Of a stretch of DNA of 64,000 nt, positions 28,284 through 47,939 are shown in pieces. The notes beneath the pieces were generated by a model. That model was not told the origin of the DNA, searched no databases, and saw only the letters and a program-made list of their open reading frames with translations. The first letter of the stretch is position 1. Each line of letters starts with the position of its first letter. Source of the stretch: a virus; the IMG/VR virus record IMGVR_UViG_3300020603_000005, positions 1 to 64,000 of that record; one strand, written 5' to 3'. Made by a program: the position numbers and the translations under genes.

Positions 28284-28634
28284 ATGGATATTTTCCATGT
28301 GGTGATTCCTCTGAAGCAGGCAGAAATTGTGAAGTCTGCCATCTCCACCAAAATGGCTGATAGAGACGACATATTTGCTTGGTCTTGTGTCCCAGAGTCA
28401 AATGTAGAACCCATATGCGCTGCCTGCGAAGGCATACCAGAATATTTGATGAAATATGTTTATATGGTGGATCCTGAGCGCTTGAGTAGGTTCTTTTTCT
28501 GGCGTATTGATGGAGAAACAGGAGTTCTTTTGGAGACAAATGCAGCAACATCGATGAAACATGTAGGACAAGAGGTCGACTTCAAGTTGTGTATAGCATC
28601 TGTTGGGTATAGAGTGAGGAGATTTGATGGCTAA
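28284..28634 (+). CDS. Small protein before terminase
   Basis: 116 residues from ATG 28284, with a near-perfect TAGGAGGT ribosome site 5 bases upstream. The fold looks alpha/beta, with Cys residues (FAWSCVPESNVEPICAACEG) and a beta end. The last 8 bases overlap the terminase start. Position suggests a small terminase subunit or packaging helper, but no DNA-binding helix-turn-helix is evident and the length is short, so this stays open. Confidence 0.65.
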   Translation: MDIFHVVIPLKQAEIVKSAISTKMADRDDIFAWSCVPESNVEPICAACEGIPEYLMKYVYMVDPERLSRFFFWRIDGETGVLLETNAATSMKHVGQEVDFKLCIASVGYRVRRFDG

Positions 28635-30510
28635 GCGCGGTCGCCCTCGCAAGACCAATCCACTCCTCGCCAAGTTGACAGCTTTCAGGGAGTCACTCGA
28701 AAACGAGGCAGGCGGTCAAGTTGCTTCGTCTGGTAAGATACCCTCAATAGTCGAATTTATTGAGAGTCGTGAATACTTGGGGATGGGTTATTACGAACCA
28801 ACCCCGATTGAGTTGTTCCCATTCCAGAGGATTGCACTCAAAGCCTTCTATAGGGGCACTAAGGGGAATGAAGATCTGAAGTTGACTGATGAAGAGATTG
28901 AGTTGTGTAAGAAATATGATCTTGACGACCCCGACTTCGAAAATGGTGACCTTCTAAAGAAATACGAAAGCGGAAATCTGTTTCAGGAGTTAGTGCTAGT
29001 GTGGGGGCGTCGTTCTGGCAAGGATTTTGTTATATCCATTTTGGCACTTTATGAGGCTCTAAAGTTGATTGAGTCCCCGGGTGGAGATCCGCATGCCATG
29101 TATGGTCTGAGTACAGGTGCTCCATTTACCATTCTCACCATTGCAAACTCTTCTAAGCAGGCAGAAATCTTGTTTCAAGAGATCAGGGATAAAGTTGTGA
29201 AGAGTATTTATTTCTCTGACAAAATCAGCCCAGAAGGAATGCTTCAGGATACGATGTACATCATGACTCCTGCAGACAGGAAGAGAAACGAAGAGATGAC
29301 GGCAAGAGGTCTGCCTATTTCTCCTGGCTCTGTGGTCATCCGATCAGGTCACTCAAACTCTGACTCTCTTGCAGGTATAGGTTGTTATTGTCTCATGCTT
29401 GACGAGGTTGGTCTCTACAGGCAGACCCCCGGGTCTAGCGGTGGAGAGGCAATATATAGAACTCTAGCGCCCGCGACATCCACATACGTTCGCCAAGAGA
29501 AATACATCGACGAAGAAGGGGTGGAGCGGGAAAGGTTTATTTACGATGGCAAGATCATATGTATCTCAAGTCCGCGTGGTAAAGAAGGTGTGTTCTACGA
29601 CCTGTTCAGAACTTCTCCAACAGTTCCACAAAGGTTGTCTATGCGGCTGCCGACGTGGGTGGTCAACACCAGGCAGAATCGAGATGGCCTTCGCCAAATG
29701 TTTTCCCAAATGCAGGATGAAGAGTTTGAGATGGAGTTTGGTGCCGAATTCACAGGAACGGCTGGATATTCGTTCTTTCCAAGGGACATAGTCGAGGCTT
29801 GTTTCAAGCCATCCTTACAGTTGAAAGAATATGGTGAGCCTGGCCAGTTTTATTTCTGTCATCTTGACCCAGCTACTTCAAGCCATAATTATGCCCTCGT
29901 GGTCTGCCATAGAGAACAATTTATAAAAAAGGACACTGGCAAGATGGATTTCAGGGTAGTGGTTGACCACATAAAGTTTTGGCAACCCAGTAAGGACAAG
30001 CCCATAGTCAATGAGGAGATAGAGTCATATATAGCAAAACTGAGCAGAAGATTCTATTTGTCTCAGGTGTCATTCGACCAGTGGAACTCGGCAGCAAGCA
30101 TAAAAGGGCTGCAGGCGAAGGGGATACCAGCAAAATTGACGCGCTTCACCAAACGCTACAAGATTATCATTTACGACTATCTTTATGACTTGGCTTCTAG
30201 TGGGAAATTATATATTCCTTATCACGAACCGATGAAGAATGAAATGCTATATTTACAGCGTAAATACATGCCCACAGGCTATCGTGTTTTTGCCAAGAGG
30301 GACGGTACAGTCAGGACAGACGATCTTGTCGATGCCCTTGCCGGGGCCTGTTTTTCTACATTTAAGCAAGATGAATCTAGGTTGCCGCAAGGTAGACTGG
30401 CTAGATTGTCAGTAACTATGGGTGAGGATCAGACTATGTGGAGGTCCATGCAGGGTATTCCGTATGGTGTTGGCTCAGGTCAAAGGGTAGCAAAGGATAT
30501 GAGGAGCTGA
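28627..30510 (+). CDS. terL: Terminase large subunit
   Basis: 627 residues from ATG 28627 with GAGGAG upstream. The packaging ATPase part has Walker A VWGRRSGKDFVIS (about residue 124), Walker B CYCLMLDEVGLY (about 252) and a coupling segment ICISSPRGKEGVFY (about 315). The nuclease part starts at HLDPATSSHNYALVV (Asp, about 412), followed by SFDQWNSAASIKGL (about 484) and a final acidic TDDLVDALAGA (about 565). It pumps DNA through the portal and cuts concatemers. It heads a tightly packed operon leading to the portal at 38134. Confidence 0.95.
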   Translation: MAKRGRPRKTNPLLAKLTAFRESLENEAGGQVASSGKIPSIVEFIESREYLGMGYYEPTPIELFPFQRIALKAFYRGTKGNEDLKLTDEEIELCKKYDLDDPDFENGDLLKKYESGNLFQELVLVWGRRSGKDFVISILALYEALKLIESPGGDPHAMYGLSTGAPFTILTIANSSKQAEILFQEIRDKVVKSIYFSDKISPEGMLQDTMYIMTPADRKRNEEMTARGLPISPGSVVIRSGHSNSDSLAGIGCYCLMLDEVGLYRQTPGSSGGEAIYRTLAPATSTYVRQEKYIDEEGVERERFIYDGKIICISSPRGKEGVFYDLFRTSPTVPQRLSMRLPTWVVNTRQNRDGLRQMFSQMQDEEFEMEFGAEFTGTAGYSFFPRDIVEACFKPSLQLKEYGEPGQFYFCHLDPATSSHNYALVVCHREQFIKKDTGKMDFRVVVDHIKFWQPSKDKPIVNEEIESYIAKLSRRFYLSQVSFDQWNSAASIKGLQAKGIPAKLTRFTKRYKIIIYDYLYDLASSGKLYIPYHEPMKNEMLYLQRKYMPTGYRVFAKRDGTVRTDDLVDALAGACFSTFKQDESRLPQGRLARLSVTMGEDQTMWRSMQGIPYGVGSGQRVAKDMRS

Positions 30511-33409: not shown

Positions 33410-33624
33410 GAGTTTGCATACTGAAAGACAGACCCACAAGACCTTCAGGTTCTTTTGAGCGCTCCTGGAGTCTAGATGAGGCGCTTAGGCGGGCTCGCGG
33501 CGTTGGGGCCGATGTTTTTCGTCACGGATCTGGATATCGCCTAGAATTTGATGACGAGAATGAGTGCGAGGACTTCGCAGATCGTCTTGTCCGTGGGGGC
33601 TTTCGTGTCTCCGAGTATGAATAA
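33406..33624 (+). CDS. Small unknown protein
   Basis: 72 residues starting in an ATGA overlap. It looks like a compact alpha/beta unit: LDEALRRARGVGADVFRHGS, GYRLEFDDENECEDFADRLV, GGFRVSEYE. Two charge-rich halves are separated by a Gly-rich turn. Function unknown. The next ATG lies inside its last codons. Confidence 0.6.
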   Translation: MRVCILKDRPTRPSGSFERSWSLDEALRRARGVGADVFRHGSGYRLEFDDENECEDFADRLVRGGFRVSEYE

Positions 33625-34459
33625 CCAATTTTCTCGAGTTGTGGTTGAATTGGCAGATAAGCCACATCTCAGAGAAAGAGGTTTGATGTTCAGGCATGAG
33701 CTAGAAGACGGGCATGGCATGGCTTTTGTATTTGACAGGCCAGAGCGACATAGTTTTTGGGGTATGAACACATTTCTGCCATTGGACATAGCTTTTGTAA
33801 ATCCATTTGGTAAAATTGTCACAGTTGGCAGGATAAGACCTCATGATTTGACATCGGTTTCGTCTTCTGAGCCGTGTAGTTTGGTCGTTGAGTTGCCCGA
33901 TGGCTGGCTTTCCAAGAATGGATTCAGGGTTGGCGATGAGTGTCATCTCAATACAGATGGCGTCCAACCCTGCTGCATATTTAACAGAAGCTATAAACTC
34001 GCCCAAAAGATGCCACTGACGTCCTTGGACCCAGATCGTGTTGATTTTGCAGAGATCAGACAATCGTCAGAAGGGGAGGATGTTGCTTCGACCCCGCCTC
34101 CTCAGGCAGATGAGGTTCCCGCAGATAGAGCCCAAATAGTCACGGATCCAGCCAGGTCTGCAGCAGATTCTCAGGTTTCTATATCTGTTGCAGTCCCAAA
34201 TTTTTCAGGAGTTGGTGATGCAGTCAGGTGGTCTGTGGCAAACAGGCAGTCTATGCTTATAGAATATTTGACAGAGGGCGGCAAAATTATTTCAAGGGAG
34301 ATTGAACCTCACGATATGCATTTTTCTGAAGCCAGCCGCAGACAGGTGGTTGTTTCATGGGACACAACGGTTGGAGCGCCTAGAAATTATTTATTGACCA
34401 GAATAGTCAGATTTTCTTTCCCGAGCAGGACATTTACGCGTAAATTCGTAGTTACTTGA
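33617..34459 (+). CDS. DUF192 domain protein with C-terminal extension
   Basis: 280 residues from ATG 33617. Residues 1-115 fit the DUF192 fold: KPHLRERGLMFRHELEDGHG, FVFDRPERHSFWGMNTFLPL, DIAFVNPFGKIVTVGRI, then a closing strand before FRVGDECHL. DUF192 proteins are small beta-barrels of unknown biochemical role, usually single-domain. Here an extra 165 residues follow: a Pro/Ala/Asp-rich linker, then a beta-rich domain (SVAVPNFSGVGDAVRWSV; ISREIEPHDMHFSEASRRQV). The location in the packaging operon makes a structural role likely, as inference. Confidence 0.75.
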   Translation: MNNQFSRVVVELADKPHLRERGLMFRHELEDGHGMAFVFDRPERHSFWGMNTFLPLDIAFVNPFGKIVTVGRIRPHDLTSVSSSEPCSLVVELPDGWLSKNGFRVGDECHLNTDGVQPCCIFNRSYKLAQKMPLTSLDPDRVDFAEIRQSSEGEDVASTPPPQADEVPADRAQIVTDPARSAADSQVSISVAVPNFSGVGDAVRWSVANRQSMLIEYLTEGGKIISREIEPHDMHFSEASRRQVVVSWDTTVGAPRNYLLTRIVRFSFPSRTFTRKFVVT

Positions 34460-38133: not shown

Positions 38134-40347
38134 ATGGCAACCAAGAAAAACGCAAGTAGTGAATCGATGGTGGACAACAAGACATATGCAAACGGAACTA
38201 TAGTTCCGCTGCCGCTGACCAAGGCGGCTCAATATGTTGGTGGGAATGTGTCCACCATATTCACCCAGCCGATGTTTTTCTCTCCTCTGCACACTCCGCA
38301 GAGTTGGCAGATAGCAAGCAGACGCAAGGAAGTGTACCAGTGGGCGCGTTTCTATTACGAAAACGAGCCAAAGGCTGCTGGTGGTATAGATTTCTATGCA
38401 ACATTCCCCATGAATGGATTCAAACTGGAGTGCAGAGATCGAAAGGTCTTGAACTATTTTGAGCACATGGTTGAAAAACTCAACCTTGATCACTGGTTCA
38501 GAAAGATATCGCACGAATATTTTTTGCTTGGTGATGTTTTCGTGTTTTTGGAAATAGACTGCCCAGTGTGCGGAGGTAGGACAAACCTTCCTGACGGCAC
38601 GATATGCAACCATCCGGGCGGAACATTCAAAAGACTGATGATCCTCAATCCAGATTTCGTTGAGGTTCAAAACACGCAACTTGCCGACCACCCAACAATT
38701 GCCATGTTGCCAGATGATGATCTACGCAGAGTGGTGCAGCAGAAGAAGCCAAAGGATATCTATGACAAGATATCTCCGCAGGTTCGTGACCTTGTTGCCG
38801 CCGGGCAGGCCATACCTCTTAGTCCGCGCTGCGTGAGTCATTTGCGACATAAGGGGAGTCCTTATGGAACTTATGGAGAGTCATTGCTGCGTCGACTCTT
38901 CATGACGATTGCATACAAAACCAAGTTGATGACAGCGAACTGGATCGTGGCAGAGCGTCATATATTGCCAATAAGAATAGTAAAGGTTGGCACTGCCGAG
39001 CGCCCTGCAAATGAGATGGATATTGCAGATGTGCAGGCTCAACTTGCTGCAGTGGCAAATGATCCAAATTTGACCATTGTTACTCACCATGCATTCGAGA
39101 TGACTTGGGAGGGTGCAACTGGCAAAATCCACGATATAAGCAATCAGCTCGAATATGTCGGCAAGGAGATGCTTGACGGTCTAATGCTCAACCAGACCTT
39201 GCTCAACGGAGAGATGCAGGCTTATTCTGGTGCTGCTGTTGGCGTGGAGACCCTCATCAGAAGACTTGAAACCTGGCGTATGGAGTTGGCACAGTGGGCA
39301 GAAAGAAACATATTCTTACCCGTTGCTCAAATGCAGGGTTTTGTTGACACAGTAAAATCGAAGCAGTTGAACGAAACTGTATGGCTGTATCCAAGAATAA
39401 AATGGAACGATCTTCGTCTTCGTGACAACTCTGAATCGTTGAACAAGATTATTCAGTTGTATGACAAGCAGGTTATCAGCAGGCAAAAGTTGCTTGATAC
39501 ATTTGATATAGACTTTGATATTGAGGTTGCACGCATCAGGGAAGAACAGGTTATGGCGGGTACTGGAGGTCAGGTTCTTGGCGGACAGCCTGGTGGCGGC
39601 GGTGGCGGCGGCGGAATCGGAGACCTAGGAAGCATAATGGGCGGATTGGGAGGTGCTGGTGGTGGTGCGCCGCCTGCTCCAGCCCCCATGGGCGGAGGTG
39701 CACCGCCGATGGATTTGGGGATGTCTCCGCCTGGTGGTGCTCCATCGGCAATTCCTGCCATGGGTGGCAACCCTGGTGCTCCGCCCATGGCGGCAGCCGC
39801 ATCTATTTTGTCAGGAAAGATATTTAAGAAGGGCAAGGGGCCAAAGGCAAAAGATATGCCCAAACCTCCACAGCCTACGAAGATATTTTTGACAAAGCCG
39901 GAGCAGAAGTTGGCATCGATCCTCAACCAACTTGCGGTTCCGTACCCACTTTTTGCACAATTCCAGCAGTACATGCCAGGTCAGAGACAGCCATTCCTTC
40001 TAGATTTTGCATATCCTCAAATCGGAGTTGATGTGGAGGCAGATGGAGAAATGTGGCATTCAGATCCCGAAGCCATTGAGCGTGACCGAGCAAGAGACAT
40101 GAAACTTGCACAACTTGGTTGGCGGGTTATAAGGATAAAAGAGGGTGCCCTCAACAGTCGGGTGGACGAAGTTGCTCAAGTTGTGATGTCAAATATTAGA
40201 GAAGCGATAGAAGAGCGGAGGATTTTGGGCAAAACTTCGGCATCTTTATCTGATGGAGAGCCTCGTGTCATTTCCACAGATGTGGCCGACATTTTCTTAC
40301 CAACAGGTGCATCCCATGCTGAAGATTTCAGCACGCAGGATACGTGA
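38134..40347 (+). CDS. Portal protein fused to a DUF559/Vsr-like nuclease domain
   Basis: 737 residues. Residues 1-470 are portal-like: an N-terminal arm with LTKAAQYVGG, then YQWARFYYENEPKAAGGIDF, a Cys cluster (DCPVCGG...CNHPGG, possible zinc site at about 150), LLRRLFMTIAYKTKLMTANW and helices with WRMELAQWAERNIFLPVAQM. Residues 475-580 are a Gly/Pro/Ala linker. Residues 585-695 form a second domain: PEQKLASILNQL, FLLDFAYPQIGVDVEADGEM, W-H, then RDRARDMKLAQLGWRVIRIK. This is the pattern of the DUF559/Vsr type of PD-(D/E)xK nucleases (E, D, E-x-D, D...R, G-W-x-V-x-R). The portal assignment follows from the position after terminase and before protease and capsid, and from length and composition. 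Confidence 0.85.
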   Translation: MATKKNASSESMVDNKTYANGTIVPLPLTKAAQYVGGNVSTIFTQPMFFSPLHTPQSWQIASRRKEVYQWARFYYENEPKAAGGIDFYATFPMNGFKLECRDRKVLNYFEHMVEKLNLDHWFRKISHEYFLLGDVFVFLEIDCPVCGGRTNLPDGTICNHPGGTFKRLMILNPDFVEVQNTQLADHPTIAMLPDDDLRRVVQQKKPKDIYDKISPQVRDLVAAGQAIPLSPRCVSHLRHKGSPYGTYGESLLRRLFMTIAYKTKLMTANWIVAERHILPIRIVKVGTAERPANEMDIADVQAQLAAVANDPNLTIVTHHAFEMTWEGATGKIHDISNQLEYVGKEMLDGLMLNQTLLNGEMQAYSGAAVGVETLIRRLETWRMELAQWAERNIFLPVAQMQGFVDTVKSKQLNETVWLYPRIKWNDLRLRDNSESLNKIIQLYDKQVISRQKLLDTFDIDFDIEVARIREEQVMAGTGGQVLGGQPGGGGGGGGIGDLGSIMGGLGGAGGGAPPAPAPMGGGAPPMDLGMSPPGGAPSAIPAMGGNPGAPPMAAAASILSGKIFKKGKGPKAKDMPKPPQPTKIFLTKPEQKLASILNQLAVPYPLFAQFQQYMPGQRQPFLLDFAYPQIGVDVEADGEMWHSDPEAIERDRARDMKLAQLGWRVIRIKEGALNSRVDEVAQVVMSNIREAIEERRILGKTSASLSDGEPRVISTDVADIFLPTGASHAEDFSTQDT

Positions 40348-40729
40348 CCGTAACATCAATTGGGAAGAGGTATACACTGAGCGTACCGAGCCTCTCAAGA
40401 AGAGATACGAGAGGGAAATTGGTTCTGGGGCATACCACAGATGGCAAGGCCACGACTACACCACCAACTCAGACTATTATGTTGTATGCTCGCCAGCGAG
40501 AACCAAAGATCTCAAGAAGGCATTTTTTGCAGGTATCAAAAAGTTGCCATCCAACTGGATGAAATTTGAGTCTAAAGTCTACAGCCCGTATGGAAAATAT
40601 TTTACTAACATTGCTTCGGCCCTGTCTTTCCTTTCAGATAAATACAGAATACCATATCCTAAGAATCAGTTCAACTATACATTGACCCATTTGGCTAATG
40701 TAAGAATCCCGAGGACAGTGAGGGCATGA
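40316..40729 (+). CDS. Unknown basic protein overlapping the portal end
   Basis: 137 residues from ATG 40316, starting inside the last codons of the portal gene in another frame; a longer start at 40253 would overlap it more. The product is basic and aromatic (RDRNINWEEVYTERTEPLKK; AYHRWQGHDYTTNSDYYVVC). It ends in an ATGA overlap with the giant protease gene. Function unknown; a head assembly role is inferred from position. Confidence 0.65.
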   Translation: MLKISARRIRDRNINWEEVYTERTEPLKKRYEREIGSGAYHRWQGHDYTTNSDYYVVCSPARTKDLKKAFFAGIKKLPSNWMKFESKVYSPYGKYFTNIASALSFLSDKYRIPYPKNQFNYTLTHLANVRIPRTVRA

Positions 40730-43700
40730 TTCCAAGCAAGTTTTCCATTTCAGGGTCGAGGCAGGTTACTGCTCTTAATGTTCCCGAGGATTGGGATGAG
40801 TTTAACACGGAAGCACTGCAGAAACAGGCGGCCAAGGTTGGTACTGACCTGAACGGATTCGACATAACTGCAGCCGTCAAGGAACACCCCGATCATTTAT
40901 TTGTTAAGGTATTTGCAATAAAGAAGAATGAGGTCAATGACAACGGCGACTGGTTCAGTGAGACTGAGTTAAAGCGTGCCGCCAAAACGTTCATCGGGGT
41001 TCCGGTCTTTGTCAACCACCAAAATGACGACATCGAGAAGGCAAGGGGCAAGGTTGTACACGCATGGTACGACGATTCCACTGGCGGTATATATACAATT
41101 AACATGGTTGACCGCGTGGCCTTCCCTAGGCTTGCTAGGGGCATAGAGCAGGGATACGTGAACGGCACATCCATGGGCTGTCAAGTACAGTACTCATGCT
41201 GCAGCATATGCCATCACAGAGCTGCAACTGCAAAAGAATTTTGCTCACATATCAAAGAGCGCAAGAAGAAGCGCTTCAATGGCGATCATGTCTGTAAGTA
41301 TCATGAGTCTCCCAATGCTGGCGACGAGCCCTGTCCAGTTTGCGGTTGCAAAAAGGGCGAAAAGAAGATCCACACACATAAAGATCAACAAATTTTTGAA
41401 CACAATTTTGGTGTCAAATTTATCGAAGATAGTTTTGTGGTCAATCCAGCATGCCATGATTGCCTCGTGCAAGAAATACTCAACCCCGAAGGCGTCCGCA
41501 AAAAGATTGCTAGCCTTGTTGAGAGGGTCAGGGCTGTAAACGAGGGGTTTAGCAAGGTGGCAGAGGAATCATTCTGCAAGGACGGGGTTTGCGGAATGAA
41601 AAAAGTGGCAGGTCGACAAGAAATTGGAGAGTTGAATGAAGCAATGAACCTGCTTGAGCGTGTTGCCAGGTCCATGATGGCACAAAAACAGGCAGTTTCT
41701 ATGGAATATGTCAGCGATCTTGTTAAGGTCATGTCGAATGTGCAAAAAACCACAGATGAACTTATAGAAATGGGTTATGCACAGTTGCCATCTCCATCTT
41801 CTGAACAGATGGCAAGGGGGACATCGGCACCAGCATCGCCTGTCGATGGTGGAAAGATATCACAAACCACCCCATCTGCAATGGCGCCTGCAACAGCGGC
41901 CCCAATGTCTATGCCTCAGCAACCCTCCCCAAGACCCCCATCTTTGGGAACCCCGTCTTTTCAGGATGTGGGTGACGACATAGGCAGGGTTACCAAGCCA
42001 ACTTTTATTCCAAGGTCAGCTTTTGGGGAGGAGATTTGGAAAAAAAACAATATTAGAGGCAAGGGACTTGCCATCCGCGTGGAAGATGGCGAGTATTTCC
42101 CCTCGGAGGATTTTTTGGCACAGAACCAAATCATTGCAAAGGTCGCGTCAGCCAACTGTTCTGTTGTGATATCCGCCGACTCTGACGGCGAATCGTTTAT
42201 AACAGAAGTTGTTGACGGTCGTGTCGTCAGAGCATCATCTGCAGACGCGTTTCCTCATAACTTGAGGAGTGCAATCGCTGAAGATCCAGAAGGCGCAGCC
42301 CTCATCATCCTTGCATCCCTTGAAAAACAAGAAAACATCAACTCTAGTAAGGAGCCTGAATTGGACATTAACAACCGCACCGTTAAAACAGCTTCAAACC
42401 GCACCGACAACTCTCCTTCCACCATAATCGAAGGGCAGTTTGTCGAAGGCAATGGCATGGGCGCACGTACCGGTGCGGAGTACACCGAAATCATCGAGTC
42501 AGACAGCCGTCTTGGTGCATCCAAGCCTGCGTTCAAAGATGTGTCTAGTGCATCACCGCAGGTGAGGTCTGGATCATCCGAAGGCACGACAGAGATGCAA
42601 CTAGCTAGCGGATCCAACGGATTCATGGCACGTTGGAACTCTTTCCCAGAAACGATCACAGAGGGTCAGTGGGGTGATGCAACCCGCGAGATCCTTGCCA
42701 AGATACCAGCAGACTGGACAGACCATGTTCAGTCTGCCCAACTCGACATTCTCCGTAAGGATCACAAGTGGGTCGATCCAACTGCAATTACAGAGGCTCA
42801 ACTCGGATCGATGGCCAAGAAGGCAAGTACAGTTGACCTTGTCAAGATTGCAACCCGTTCTATTGCTGATGGCATTGCAATCTATGGTCTAGATCCCGTC
42901 GACATCTCCAAGGTTGCGCAGTACATATCAGCCAAGCCATCAAGACATGCCAAGGCTGCCTTCATGGTTTCTATTAATGCAGCCCCTTGGACTGTGTCTC
43001 AGCGTCGTGAAGTTGCCGAAAGAAACTCTGAGATGACCAAGGGTGCTTCTGCAGGTCTCATGGCCGAGCCCATCGACCTTGTTTTGGCCTCCATCGCAGA
43101 TAATGCCAAGAATGTCACTGCCGAGGATGCCATCCAGGCGTTCATCCACTGCGCGAACAATGACCTAGCTGTCGAGCAGGCCACCAAGATGGCAACTGAT
43201 GCTTCTGAAACCCTGGCAAAGGATGCCTCATTTGAGGACGCGATCCGCCAGGCCTTCCGTCCTGAAGATGGTCTCTACAAGGTTTGCTGCACTGTTGGCG
43301 AGGACATTTCAGCAGACCCATCAGATAAGATTAACTTTATAGCGGAGGTCACCAAGTTTGCTCAGGGCATGATCTCTAGTCGCTTCCCTGGTGTTGATGT
43401 TGTACCGATGTCAATAGATTTCGACGATGCCAATGGCATTGTTGAGGCAGTGGTCAAGGAGGCAAAAATGCTCACTTCTGCAGAGGAAGAGGCATACCAC
43501 AAGTTTGCATCCGATGTGGAGAGCACTATGAAGAAAGCCCCCAAGACAAAGGTCGCGGTCGCATCTTCTGAGACTTATGATTCTCGAGAAGACAGGATAT
43601 CTCGTCGTGCCAAGTTGCTTGAGGAGATTGAGCGACTTGAGAAGAAGGCTCAAGTTGGAGGCGCCATGCCCAGCGCCCTAAATCCAGCAGGCATGGGTGC

Positions 43701-46371
43701 TGGTGTTGCGGTTCCAGGTGCCATGCCTCCCGGCATGCCTGGCGCAGAGGCGCTGACTGGCGCTCCGCCAGCACCAGGGGCCCCCGCTGGTATGCCTGGA
43801 GCTCCCGCTTCGGCGCCAACAGACCCTCTTGGTCTCGACACAGACACCCTCGGCAAGGCCAAGCCACCAGCTGCGGTTTGCGTCGTGTGTGGCAACCAGG
43901 ATGTTGATGTTGCTGGCGGCAAGAGCCAGTGCAAAGGCCCGGGTTGCGGCAGTGGATTCACCATCAAGGTTATTCCAGATGCATCTCTTCTTGACAATAT
44001 CACTGACGGAGATATTGACAAAGAGGATGTTGGCGGCGACAACCCTGCAGAGCCAGATAAGGGTCTTGGCGGGATTGGCGCCGAACTGCCACCCGGCATG
44101 CCACCCCTAGGGGCACCAGGGCTTCCTCCTGTTGCTGCATCCACCCGCATCACTCCAGAAACACTCAGGAAGATCGCCAGCAAGGGTGCTCTAGGATCTG
44201 TGAGCCCAATCACTGGCGAGAGAAATACCGTCAAACTTGACAACGAAACATGGATGTGCTTGGACTCTGGTCAGATGTACAAGGTTCGTCTTGCCGCGTC
44301 GACCACCTCTCCTAAGGATGTGTATGCTCAGTGGGAATGGGTGCCAGAGTTTAAGAAGGCATCATGCAGCAGCTGCGCCCGTAAGCGTGCATCTATTAAT
44401 TCTGCCCTGAATGAAGTTGGCGTTGATCGTGCAACATTCGACGGCATGTCTGTTGTCAAGAAGGCCGAAGTTTTGAACGAAGCCCTCAGCAAGGGTGCCG
44501 TAAAGCAGGTCAAGATAGCTTCTGAAGATGAGACTGCAATTGGCTCATTCAAGAAGGCATTCACCATGCATGGTGAATTCCCAATGAATGAGTGCGTGGA
44601 AAAACTCGCCAGGAGGTATGGCGCTGATTCCGTGGCGCTCAGCGGTCCTTGCCGTGGAAACAGCCTTCCAGATTGCGTGTGCAGCAAACTTGCCGGTGCG
44701 AATGTGTACAGCACAATCGTGGCTGACAAGGTTGCCTCATCTTGGGCGCAGCCGGATCCTATGTGCGAGTGCGTAGAGGACCTTGTCCGCGAAGGCATGG
44801 GTCTCAAGCAGGCTTCCAATGCTTGTGAGATGATCAAAGCTGCCTATGCAGAGGACGAGGAGTATCTCGCCGATGATCTCGCAGATGGCGACGGAGAGAC
44901 TGACTTGTCACAGCAGGATGAAACGGAAGAATCCGATCCATTCGATGGCGAGGATGATTCTGAATCTGGTGACAAAAAGACCATTTCCGTCACTCTCGAT
45001 GTGACCCCAGAAGTTCTTGAGCAGATTGACGAGCAGATACAGAAGGCTCTAACTAAGGCTTGGAGTGAAGATGAGAGTGATATGGACACAGAGGTCGACA
45101 TGGGGGCTGAGATGTCTGATGATGTTGGCACGGATGTGCCTGAAGATTCCGTTGAGGTCGACGACATCGACGATGTCGAAGACGTGGATGAAGAAGAGTC
45201 AGTCGAGGTGTCACCTACTGTTGAAGACGAAGACTCTTCTGACGAAGACTCTTCTGACGAAGACTCTTCTGACGATAATCCGAATGGAGAAACAGAAGAG
45301 AAAGATGCAGTCATGGAAAAGACAGCTCCAAATTATGCCAAATCCAAGTCAAACGAGACCTTCGACATTGAGAAGGAGGCCATGGCCCTCCGTCGTGGCA
45401 GAGTTGTTGGCGTAGGCAAGTTGGAACTTGACATATCACGTCTTGCATCTGCCCTGACCAAGGAGGCAGGAGAGAAGGCTGTCGAGATAGGTCATGCACA
45501 GAAGCAGCCAGAACTTGGTACCGTCATGACGGGCAAGGCTGGTCTGAAATCGCCAAAGGTCGTTGAGAACGGCGGCAAGCCGCTCAGCAGAGAGCACGGC
45601 GAAGGCTTCGATGCAGACATGCCCAAGGTTCCCGTTGATGGTCCTAGCTTCAGTGGCGACAAGATCAAGGGAGAGAAGGGCAATATGGCCACTGGCGGTG
45701 TCCAAGGAGCAGGTAAATCTGCCTCTGGCAAGCTTCATAACCAGAAGGCTGCATTCTCCGATTCATTGGCCAAGCTTGCCTCTGAGCTTGGTCTCAAGAC
45801 CGAGTTGGTGCAGAACCAGGAAGATCTTGGCGACGTGGGCACCTCTGAAGGTCTTGAAGGCATGGGAGAACTTGAAGTTCCAGAGGGTAACGAGTCTGCA
45901 GGTCTGAGCCTGCCTTCCATACCGGTTGGCGGTCAGGACGGTGCAGAGAAGCAGAATCTAATGACAGGCGGCCAGGTTGGATCGGGTAAGTCCGGTCCAG
46001 TTGGCGGCTATGCAAAGAAGAAGGCTGGTGAAGATTCCAGCGAGTTGGCTCTCAAGGTTGCTGGCAAGATGGTTGCTGCAGGGATGATCTCTGCAGACAG
46101 TCTGCCTGCAAAAGCCAAAGAGTTGATGGGCTACAAGGTGGCTCAGCTCGTGGACCTTGAGAAGGCAATGTTCGCAGAGGGTGTCGTCGCCAAGGGCCTG
46201 AAGACGGCCTCGGCAGGGTCAGAAACGGCTTTTGTGATCCCCGAGCAGAAGAGTGAGCGTAATGCGTATGGAGATCTCAAGTCCAAGATCTCGTCCATGT
46301 TCCGACTGCAGCAGCAGGTGGAGTTGGCAGATCAGACTGAGACCAACGTACTGCGTCGGGTCTTCAAGTGA
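40726..46371 (+). CDS. Giant head protein with N-terminal prohead protease
   Basis: 1881 residues. Residues 55-265 match the T4 gp21/S78-like prohead protease fold: VKVFAIKKNEVNDNGDWFS, TFIGVPVFVNHQNDDIEKA with putative catalytic His98, and GYVNGTSMGCQVQYS with putative Ser149. A Cys/His-rich insert (CSICHHRAATAKEFCSHI; EPCPVCGCKK, residues 158-208) may bind zinc. Then follow helices, a Pro-rich linker (about 350-405), large helical regions, a zinc-ribbon-like CVVCGNQDV...CKGPGC (about 1045-1080), an acidic stretch with DEDSS repeats (about 1500-1515) and two related C-terminal blocks (NMATGGVQGAGKSASGKL; NLMTGGQVGSGKSGPVGG). K-x-A motifs occur throughout. It may combine protease, scaffold and internal-protein roles and process itself. 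Confidence 0.85.
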   Translation: MIPSKFSISGSRQVTALNVPEDWDEFNTEALQKQAAKVGTDLNGFDITAAVKEHPDHLFVKVFAIKKNEVNDNGDWFSETELKRAAKTFIGVPVFVNHQNDDIEKARGKVVHAWYDDSTGGIYTINMVDRVAFPRLARGIEQGYVNGTSMGCQVQYSCCSICHHRAATAKEFCSHIKERKKKRFNGDHVCKYHESPNAGDEPCPVCGCKKGEKKIHTHKDQQIFEHNFGVKFIEDSFVVNPACHDCLVQEILNPEGVRKKIASLVERVRAVNEGFSKVAEESFCKDGVCGMKKVAGRQEIGELNEAMNLLERVARSMMAQKQAVSMEYVSDLVKVMSNVQKTTDELIEMGYAQLPSPSSEQMARGTSAPASPVDGGKISQTTPSAMAPATAAPMSMPQQPSPRPPSLGTPSFQDVGDDIGRVTKPTFIPRSAFGEEIWKKNNIRGKGLAIRVEDGEYFPSEDFLAQNQIIAKVASANCSVVISADSDGESFITEVVDGRVVRASSADAFPHNLRSAIAEDPEGAALIILASLEKQENINSSKEPELDINNRTVKTASNRTDNSPSTIIEGQFVEGNGMGARTGAEYTEIIESDSRLGASKPAFKDVSSASPQVRSGSSEGTTEMQLASGSNGFMARWNSFPETITEGQWGDATREILAKIPADWTDHVQSAQLDILRKDHKWVDPTAITEAQLGSMAKKASTVDLVKIATRSIADGIAIYGLDPVDISKVAQYISAKPSRHAKAAFMVSINAAPWTVSQRREVAERNSEMTKGASAGLMAEPIDLVLASIADNAKNVTAEDAIQAFIHCANNDLAVEQATKMATDASETLAKDASFEDAIRQAFRPEDGLYKVCCTVGEDISADPSDKINFIAEVTKFAQGMISSRFPGVDVVPMSIDFDDANGIVEAVVKEAKMLTSAEEEAYHKFASDVESTMKKAPKTKVAVASSETYDSREDRISRRAKLLEEIERLEKKAQVGGAMPSALNPAGMGAGVAVPGAMPPGMPGAEALTGAPPAPGAPAGMPGAPASAPTDPLGLDTDTLGKAKPPAAVCVVCGNQDVDVAGGKSQCKGPGCGSGFTIKVIPDASLLDNITDGDIDKEDVGGDNPAEPDKGLGGIGAELPPGMPPLGAPGLPPVAASTRITPETLRKIASKGALGSVSPITGERNTVKLDNETWMCLDSGQMYKVRLAASTTSPKDVYAQWEWVPEFKKASCSSCARKRASINSALNEVGVDRATFDGMSVVKKAEVLNEALSKGAVKQVKIASEDETAIGSFKKAFTMHGEFPMNECVEKLARRYGADSVALSGPCRGNSLPDCVCSKLAGANVYSTIVADKVASSWAQPDPMCECVEDLVREGMGLKQASNACEMIKAAYAEDEEYLADDLADGDGETDLSQQDETEESDPFDGEDDSESGDKKTISVTLDVTPEVLEQIDEQIQKALTKAWSEDESDMDTEVDMGAEMSDDVGTDVPEDSVEVDDIDDVEDVDEEESVEVSPTVEDEDSSDEDSSDEDSSDDNPNGETEEKDAVMEKTAPNYAKSKSNETFDIEKEAMALRRGRVVGVGKLELDISRLASALTKEAGEKAVEIGHAQKQPELGTVMTGKAGLKSPKVVENGGKPLSREHGEGFDADMPKVPVDGPSFSGDKIKGEKGNMATGGVQGAGKSASGKLHNQKAAFSDSLAKLASELGLKTELVQNQEDLGDVGTSEGLEGMGELEVPEGNESAGLSLPSIPVGGQDGAEKQNLMTGGQVGSGKSGPVGGYAKKKAGEDSSELALKVAGKMVAAGMISADSLPAKAKELMGYKVAQLVDLEKAMFAEGVVAKGLKTASAGSETAFVIPEQKSERNAYGDLKSKISSMFRLQQQVELADQTETNVLRRVFK
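45226..45270 (+). repeat. Three exact 15-bp tandem repeats coding for DEDSS
   Basis: GACGAAGACTCTTCT occurs three times without change, coding DEDSS-DEDSS-DEDSS inside the giant head protein. It lies in an acidic disordered region. Exact copies suggest recent expansion by slippage, so copy number may vary between strains. Confidence 0.9.
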
Positions 46372-47005: not shown

Positions 47006-47069
47006 TGAATCTTCCGACTTACCACCCTGATGCGTGAATCAGGGGGTGTCGGAGAAAGGAAAAAACACA

Positions 47070-47939
47070 ATGAGCATCAACAAAGATGGTTTGACTTACG
47101 ATGAGAAAGAGGCCGTGATCGCACAGGCCTTGTCGACTGAGGAGGGGCGCGTTGCCCTTGCCCAGGCGATGGTGGAGCCGATTCGGCGTTCCCTGGAGTA
47201 CCAGGCCGTCGGTCGCAAGCTCCTGATGGTGGACGAGCTCCCACAGGGCGCTCTTCCCCGCTACGAGCGCGATGTTGCCTCCGTGGCAGTAGTCGTTGCC
47301 CGTCAGGGTGCAGTGCCTGATCAGATCACCGAGGGTGAGGAAGTTCTTGTCCCCACATTCGAGATCGCAGCACACCCCACCATCCGTTTGTCCGAGATCA
47401 AAGCACGTCGCTTCTACATCGTTGACCGTGCCCAGATCAAGGCAAAAGAGGCAATCCAGAAGGAAGAGGATCGCAATATCTTCAACGCTCTGATTGCTGC
47501 TACTACATCATCTAACGAGATCACCAACAGCGGCACTTTGGAGACTGCGTCTCTGAACTCTGCCTACAAGAACATTGAGACCCACGATCTGGTGGCCTCA
47601 AAGGTGGTCATGCACCCTGAGTCCTATTCGGCAGTTCGCAGCTTCGGTAAAGACTTCTATGATGAGGCCACCACACGTGAGATCCTCACCACTGGTCTTT
47701 ACGGTCACCTGTGGACGGCTGATATCCATGTGTCCAGCCAACTCGATGACAGCAAGGTCATCGTTACTGCAAGTCCCGACACCGTGGGCGCCTTCCCCAT
47801 CCGCCAGGACATCACTGTCCTTCCCGCTGATGATCCGAAGAAGTTGCGTCTTGGTTGGGTGATCTACGAGGAAGTCGGCATCGTGGTCATGAACGACTAC
47901 GCTGTGTCCGTCATCACCGTGGAGGCTACAACCACCTGA
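47070..47939 (+). CDS. Major capsid protein (HK97 fold)
   Basis: 289 residues from ATG 47070, with GGAGAAAGG about 10 bases upstream; the in-frame ATG at 47034 has no such site. The N-terminal helix (LTYDEKEAVIAQALSTEEGR) is followed by LPQGALPRYERDVASVAVVV and a long beta/alpha core (FEIAAHPTIRLSEIKARRFY; EDRNIFNALIAATT). The P-domain/A-domain style end (LRLGWVIYEEVGIVVMNDYA) matches HK97-type capsids. Position after protease and decoration genes supports it. A strong terminator follows, and codon use is more biased than in the neighbours, consistent with high expression. Confidence 0.9.
   Translation: MSINKDGLTYDEKEAVIAQALSTEEGRVALAQAMVEPIRRSLEYQAVGRKLLMVDELPQGALPRYERDVASVAVVVARQGAVPDQITEGEEVLVPTFEIAAHPTIRLSEIKARRFYIVDRAQIKAKEAIQKEEDRNIFNALIAATTSSNEITNSGTLETASLNSAYKNIETHDLVASKVVMHPESYSAVRSFGKDFYDEATTREILTTGLYGHLWTADIHVSSQLDDSKVIVTASPDTVGAFPIRQDITVLPADDPKKLRLGWVIYEEVGIVVMNDYAVSVITVEATTT

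Follow-up and report, generated by a model that had tools for sequence, protein, structure and literature searches.

A predicted Vsr-like nuclease domain with a conserved active site, tethered to the portal protein across a clade of uncultured phages

Portal proteins of phages are mostly viewed as channels and pressure sensors; what would one do with a nuclease of its own? The question is raised by a stretch of 64,000 nucleotides (the window, positions 1 to 64,000 of the IMG/VR virus record IMGVR_UViG_3300020603_000005, which has 100,465 bases in all), where the open reading frame (ORF) at 38134-40347 on the + strand encodes a portal protein of 737 amino acids. A preliminary description, made from the letters alone, had pointed to a nuclease domain at 39880-40230, about residues 583-699. 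Judged by its sequence and by structure models, 38134-40347 is a single ORF predicted to join a portal core, a flexible tether and a C-terminal nuclease domain (Table 1). We are highly confident that it combines a portal with a nuclease whose active site is intact, and that it is under purifying selection.

The core is identified as a portal by several matches. Pfam Portal_Mu matches the ORF with 33.3 bits against a cut-off of 23.9, phrog_16240 ('portal protein') matches it at 2.1e-40, and residues 31-472 are 31% identical to gp14 of Bacillus phage G, which is annotated as a portal. The terminase, protease and major head genes nearby also fit this identity. The model of the full-length protein has a mean predicted local distance difference test score (pLDDT) of 51.7, and in Foldseek it gave weak portal matches and nothing stronger. 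The 50 best matches listed from a viral structure library include phage G gp14 and a few other portals, none of them with both domains. In the 111 distinct fused portals, glycine, proline, alanine and methionine together make up a median fraction of 0.64 of the stretch that links core and domain.

The C-terminal domain exceeds the cut-off of 20.6 bits for DUF559 (PF04480), both as the C-terminus alone (29.3 bits) and in the whole protein (26.6 bits). For REase_MTES_1575 (PF18741) the corresponding scores are 38.0 and 35.1 bits, with a cut-off of 38.2, and both families match at E <= 0.001 in all 30 aligned sequences, the window's included. The Vsr mismatch endonuclease model TIGR00632 gives 24.7 bits, far under its cut-off of 97.85, and Pfam Vsr matches one of the 30 aligned members at E <= 0.001. 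On these sequence matches the domain is assigned to the DUF559/Vsr-like group but not to Vsr proper. When the family profile was compared with solved structures, I-Bth0305I (3r3p) was matched at 3.7e-6 and 3hrl at 1.9e-4, with Vsr no better than 0.34. The AlphaFold model of the domain, made from 30 sequences, has a mean pLDDT of 83, the domain itself being mostly above 90. Its closest fold is the catalytic domain of I-Bth0305I (3r3p; Z 12.4, 96 residues, 2.2 Å), followed by 3hrl (Z 11.9, 92 residues, 1.7 Å), and comparison with the Vsr-DNA complex 1cw0 gives Z 10.6 over 107 residues at 2.4 Å. Foldseek was consistent with these folds, with PvuRts1I as an additional match. In the model, the secondary structure and the matching folds reveal the alpha-beta-beta-beta-alpha-beta core of the PD-(D/E)xK enzymes, and the residues include the catalytic acids. 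The Gly/Pro linker followed by a DUF559/Vsr-like domain, as first described, is confirmed by the Pfam DUF559 score and the fold matches, and the restriction-endonuclease fold on which that description depended is present.

Would such a domain still cut? The acids named at the outset, E, D and E-x-D, are all there as E590, D624 (by homology presumably the metal-site Asp) and E635-A-D637; they hold in close relatives, the sole variation being Glu for D637 in two sequences. Conservation was counted in overlapping sets of 77 and 49 (later loci) distinct sequences, and in 111 distinct domains overall. E590, D624 and E635 are present in all 111, and D637 in 108 of the 110 that are readable there, with Glu in the other two (loci L069 and L084). 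Invariant in the 77 sequences are E590, Q609, D624, A626, P628 and E635, while G638, H642, D651, R654, D655, G662, W663 and R667 are kept in all 76 that are readable. The 49 later sequences all keep E590, Q609, D624, E635, D637, G638, H642, D651, R654 and D655. A strict residue pattern fits 100 of the 111 domains; of the 11 that depart from it, two carry Ser next to D624, five have insertions in E-x-D, one is cut within the motif, two have D637E, and one, L099, is one residue shorter before the His. The domain of L109 ends after E635.

The ratio of nonsynonymous to synonymous substitution rates (dN/dS) between the window and L003 is 0.051 for the domain and 0.076 for the core, compared with 0.22 for the tether and 0.455 for the tail. 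Between L028 and L030 it is 0.083 for the domain and 0.04 for the core; in three other pairs compared, synonymous changes in the domain had reached saturation. Core and domain identities are correlated among 17 sequences (r 0.878, with none of 2000 permutations as high), which argues for vertical inheritance of the fused pair. Both the sequences and the model make the domain look like a working DNA-cutting enzyme. It is very improbable that it is a catalytically idle DNA-binding or structural domain, holding the DNA end or gating the channel: although in T4 the crown and wing of the portal contact DNA and in P22 the barrel channels it (extracts of PMC9958956 and PMC4493910), and two sequences have Glu for D637, E590, D624 and E635 are kept in every one of the 111 distinct sequences.

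To see how far the fusion extends, IMG/VR was scanned with the portal, the domain and alignments. The numbers of relatives are lower bounds, three of the scans having given the best 80 of 90, 80 of 170 and 80 of 190 loci. The query was the whole alignment, with patterns from the core, for the 80 of 90 and the portal core for the 80 of 190. Two scans, one being the best 80 of 170, were queried with the domain itself and so are biased to fused portals; three were queried with portal cores and another with the whole phage G portal. Core and domain are fused in at least 253 ORFs with at least 111 distinct domain sequences, counting the window's own and overlapping loci. In a scan by the portal core alone, 36 of 41 loci were fused, four were cut by contig ends and one was frameshifted with the domain present. 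Loci L001-L200 hold 180 fused and 31 core-only ORFs, the latter made up of seven portals of named phages (L055-L061: phage G, the unannotated LR745208, Rctr197k, Myrna, Finch, Skog and Phrappuccino), nine truncated at contig ends and 15 fragments of a single frameshifted portal, which spans the three overlapping loci L051, L117 and L166 and has the domain in another frame. Among 91 later loci, 73 are fused, seven are cut by contig ends, ten belong to the Bacillus phage G clade, all ten without the nuclease domain, and one, L255, has an in-frame TGA in its Gly/Pro tether (L255:7555-7557), with the domain continuing in the same frame. This TGA could be a sequencing error, a split gene or readthrough.

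The most distant fused portals compared with the window's are 42-44% identical to it in the core and 40-42% in the domain, and fused contigs are as long as 547,943 and 494,120 bases. As the domain is kept in almost all close relatives examined, the phages probably need it. An assembly artefact or a chance in-frame joining of two genes, to which the TGA of L255 might lend itself, has next to no probability and is already refuted by the recurrence of the same fusion in so many ORFs, on contigs of many IMG/VR accessions. With the whole portal as query, no fused match was found in a phage collection from which the closest relatives may be excluded, as no place covered 80% of the query, either for the window's portal (216 records) or for that of L199 (222 records), and one scan of genome contigs, aimed at the host, gave no relative.

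The domain alone matches 13 records of the phage collection. Seven of these are Rhizobium phage genes annotated as homing endonucleases, and three (a 735-kb uncultured phage, the Microcystis phage MaeS and a Rhizobium phage) had no portal-core match in the stretch fetched. Together with I-Bth0305I, itself a homing endonuclease, as the best fold match, these annotations suggest another origin for the fusion, a Vsr-like mobile nuclease of the EDxHD type that joined the portal and persists as a genetic parasite, domesticated or still selfish. EDxHD homing endonucleases are mobile, intron-borne or free-standing genes of patchy distribution. Here the domain is portal-borne and co-inherited with the core under purifying selection. 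DUF559 lies on the portal in all eight large fused contigs and is the sole copy in seven of them, the eighth having one extra free-standing copy; the window's record has one copy, and the phage G genome gave no DUF559 match. No closely related portal lacking the domain at an intact empty site was seen, and the domain has itself been invaded by intein-like insertions. Overall the homing account is improbable: origin from a homing enzyme is possible, and present selfish behaviour is unlikely.

These insertions fall within the catalytic site. Six portals have one exactly after E635 (E635^C636), inside the E-x-D motif. Four of the insertions share the ends E|C...HN|C-D-G, that of L116 ends in FN and that of L109 is cut by the contig end. 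Two of the six, L054 and L111, were scanned with Pfam. In L054 a LAGLIDADG domain within the insertion is over its cut-off and an Intein_splicing match, under its cut-off, stops at the last residues of the insertion; in L111 a Hint_2 match, under its cut-off, begins at the first residues. The insertion is a well-founded intein in L054, and from the shared ends we infer that the other five are inteins also. Inteins prefer conserved sites in needed proteins. More generally, this clade has a hot spot for intein-like insertions in its portal gene: 44 of the 111 distinct portals have core insertions of more than 80 residues, which recur at profile positions of about 80-110, 330-340 and 370-390 (L049, L054, L111 and L116, for example), and intein, Hint or LAGLIDADG Pfam matches were found in three inserted portals (L049, L054 and L111).

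Where would the nuclease lie in the virion? In T4 the C-terminal crown is the most internal part of the portal (extract of PMC4493910), and green fluorescent protein (GFP) fused to the C-terminus of the portal is located within the capsid (extract of PMC3012670). Because both lie inside, the nuclease probably lies on the inner, head side of the channel. With T4 topology the tether would start at the crown and leave the nuclease suspended over the channel on its head side, presumably in some twelve copies, the number that follows from the portal family. The preliminary description proposed that a nuclease so placed could trim packaged ends, clear stalled DNA or attack DNA in the cell.

At that position we favour a housekeeping role in DNA processing during packaging or maturation, with a probability of roughly 0.42. 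The Vsr-like nuclease, with its intact active site, would be a fixed part of the packaging machine. It would act on DNA that passes or sits at the portal while the head is packaged and matures, and would rid the entering or last-packaged DNA of structures, damaged stretches or ends. A standing processing role of this kind fits the near-total conservation, the low copy number, the lack of domain swapping among the relatives retrieved and the active-site insertions. Functional precedents come from T4, where the gp49 resolvase binds the portal (extracts of PMC3012670 and PMC9958956) and gp4, a DNase of the restriction endonuclease (REase) fold, is required for packaging (extract of PMC7824862).

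Several points weigh against processing at the portal. The tether of L255 is interrupted by its TGA. A nuclease inside the head would meet packaged DNA, so some restraint is needed. The large terminase subunit TerL keeps the motifs LDPA, FDQW and DDLVDALA, which we take to be nuclease-type, so the portal nuclease need not replace that of TerL; substitution for the terminase was rejected on this ground. Release and delivery would better suit the possible protease sites that lie next to the domain in many relatives. The idea that the nuclease replaces a Holliday resolvase the phages lack was not supported either. In a search of eight fused contigs (300-548 kb, possibly fragments) and phage G, six of the eight contigs had some resolvase match, three of them over the cut-off. 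RusA was matched in four (two over the cut-off), endonuclease VII in one (over the cut-off) and Phage_endo_I in one (weak, under the cut-off), RuvC being confined to phage G. RecU and Hjc gave no match in any of the nine records, and neither did Pox_A22 or the T4 gp4-like TnsA nuclease (PF08722), for which the controls gave none either.

Close to this processing role stands delivery, by which the nuclease would be carried on the portal in the head, freed by the prohead protease (at K/R-x-A-S/Q sites in those portals that have them), and would leave with the genome to cut DNA of the host or of rivals, with phage DNA spared through modification or specificity. We entertain it tentatively. The inside position of the domain fits, as do enzymes fused to portals or to MuF proteins that are predicted to be delivered (passages of PMC5512222 and PMC5576092). 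The domain matches the nuclease parts of ProA (8e-6) and Hhe (6.5e-4), both anti-phage proteins, at scores well short of the whole-protein cut-offs, and its fold matches PvuRts1I/AbaSI, which depend on 5-hydroxymethylcytosine.

A possible prohead-protease motif also fits delivery. [KR]xA[SAQ] occurs between core and domain in 45 of 111 portals against a shuffle mean of 20.3 (maximum 33), and a stricter form in 43 of 111 against a mean of 4.7 (maximum 12). In the window's protease-bearing protein of 1881 residues, K.A is the most enriched spaced pair, with 46 seen and 15.3 expected, and its K-x-A motifs are candidate recognition sites of the prohead protease; K.A is among the top four pairs in 27 of 59 long ORFs behind portals, a set that includes the window's own ORF and some that are not orthologues, and is not enriched in the long ORF behind the portal in the L189-L200 lineage. 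Flanking motifs are frequent too: 45 of 61 portals have [LIVMF][TSV][KR]xA ahead of the core, against a shuffle mean of 1.8, and 65 of 70 have [KR]x[AS] after the nuclease, against a mean of 18.4, 61 and 70 being those of the 77 sequences that have the needed flanks. For all these counts the K-x-A-type motif was settled on after inspection, and the sequences are related whereas the shuffles ignore kinship. The window's own tether, moreover, has no [KR]xA[SAQ] site. No domain swapping was seen among the relatives retrieved, unlike polymorphic toxins, and there is no constant partner gene. That a clade-wide DNase in the portal ring is freed in the head (by the prohead protease where there are sites) and injected with the genome against host or competing phage DNA is, in our estimate, less likely than not. 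Many portals of the L189-L200 lineage and of related loci among L204-L267 have a longer spacing of about 170-205 residues from core to nuclease, with at least one [KR]xA[SA] in it.

The small ORF that overlaps the end of the portal gene is strongly conserved in near relatives and has no significant Pfam or PHROG match. Of 180 locus entries, with several entries per contig, 168 have a homologue of it behind the portal. It is missing behind the nuclease-bearing portals of L189, L196 and L199, the loci of the L189-L200 lineage that were examined, and a toxin-immunity pair with it was rejected, as it is not an obligatory partner. Also near the head genes, the protein encoded at 33548-34459 contains a DUF192 domain (87.2 bits) and only just exceeds the WYL cut-off (22.0 against 21.8 bits).

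Table 1. Position of the portal domains, active-site residues and neighbouring genes in the window
Feature	Residues	Position	Strand	Evidence
Terminase large subunit		28624..30510	+	phrog_2, 2.1e-27; LDPA, FDQW, DDLVDALA read by eye
Portal core	1-478	38134..39567	+	Portal_Mu, phrog_16240, identity to phage G portal
Gly/Pro/Met/Ala-rich tether (~105 residues)	479-583	39568..39882	+	Sequence; pLDDT <50 for residues 472-583
Basic motif KIFKKGKGPK, tether end	562-571	39817..39846	+	G567 invariant in 30/30 aligned sequences
Predicted Vsr-like / DUF559 PD-(D/E)xK nuclease domain	584-700	39883..40233	+	Pfam, fold, conservation
E590, acidic residue of first helix	590	39901..39903	+	77/77 and 49/49 distinct sequences
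D624	624	40003..40005	+	77/77 and 49/49 distinct sequences
E635-A-D637, E-x-D motif	635-637	40036..40044	+	E635 77/77, 49/49; D637 74/76 (two Glu), 49/49
H642	642	40057..40059	+	76/76 readable and 49/49
Short variable C-terminal tail	701-737	40234..40344	+	K-x-[AS]-type motif (GKTSAS) at tail start
Small ORF overlapping portal end		40253..40729	+	Conserved part from ~40319; ATG at 40316 just before
1881-residue protein, head maturation protease match near N-terminus		40726..46371	+	phrog_18299, 3e-14; best match phrog_2774, unknown function
Major head protein		47034..47939	+	phrog_2522, 2.8e-66

A nuclease covalently attached to the portal across a large uncultured clade, its active site even hosting intein-like insertions, suggests that cutting at the portal is a standing need. 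The fusion makes it testable how a phage keeps a DNase next to its own packed genome, and provides a marker for finding and naming the clade. If delivery were true, the portal would double as carrier of the first weapon.

Enzymes on portals have precedents. Iyer et al. (2017) reported, among 'polyvalent' phage proteins, portal fusions to PBECR (RNase), 2H phosphoesterase and InPase domains, and lysozyme domains in portals (extract of PMC5512222). As in those fusions, which are predicted there to be in the virion, the window's portal has an extra enzymatic domain; unlike them, the partner is of a kind (DUF559, REase) that does not appear in the extract, which describes no clade-wide fixed fusion. 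In the MuF polymorphic toxins, too, a head protein located at the portal bears a nuclease-type domain at its C-terminus; in the extract of PMC5576092, MuF is encoded by a separate gene beside the portal gene, with varying toxin domains, an expected immunity gene, and toxins in temperate phages only. Here, in contrast, it is the portal itself that carries one invariant domain. No partner gene common to all lineages examined was found, immunity genes being hard to recognise, and within the part of the genome searched for MuF, namely the portal and the next two ORFs, none of the matches is to a MuF family.

T4 gp49, endonuclease VII, is not known to be related in sequence to the portal nuclease domain. 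It is similar in being a nuclease placed at the portal (gp20) for packaging, and different in being a separate portal-bound protein, which releases packaging stalled on branched DNA (extracts of PMC3012670 and PMC9958956). The Bacillus phage G gp14 clade shares the homologous core, with a Gly/Pro-rich C-terminal tail in phage G, and differs from the window's portal in having no nuclease domain at any of its ten loci. I-Bth0305I and Vsr are enzymes that are intron-borne or free-standing and serve in homing or in mismatch repair. What they have in common with the portal domain is the fold, with the profile matching I-Bth0305I well ahead of Vsr (3.7e-6 against 0.34 or worse).

The preliminary description knew of no characterised portal with this fusion, and indeed, among the papers listed from an open-licence library, no title or abstract opening mentions a portal-DUF559/Vsr fusion, though other portal-enzyme fusions are described (extract of PMC5512222). 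'Portal protein' and 'DUF559' occur together in just one paper of that library, a review on phages of thermophilic Bacillus-group bacteria (PMC10969951). Portal-enzyme fusions are already known, and it is the fusion to a DUF559/Vsr-like nuclease that is new among the open-licence papers searched.

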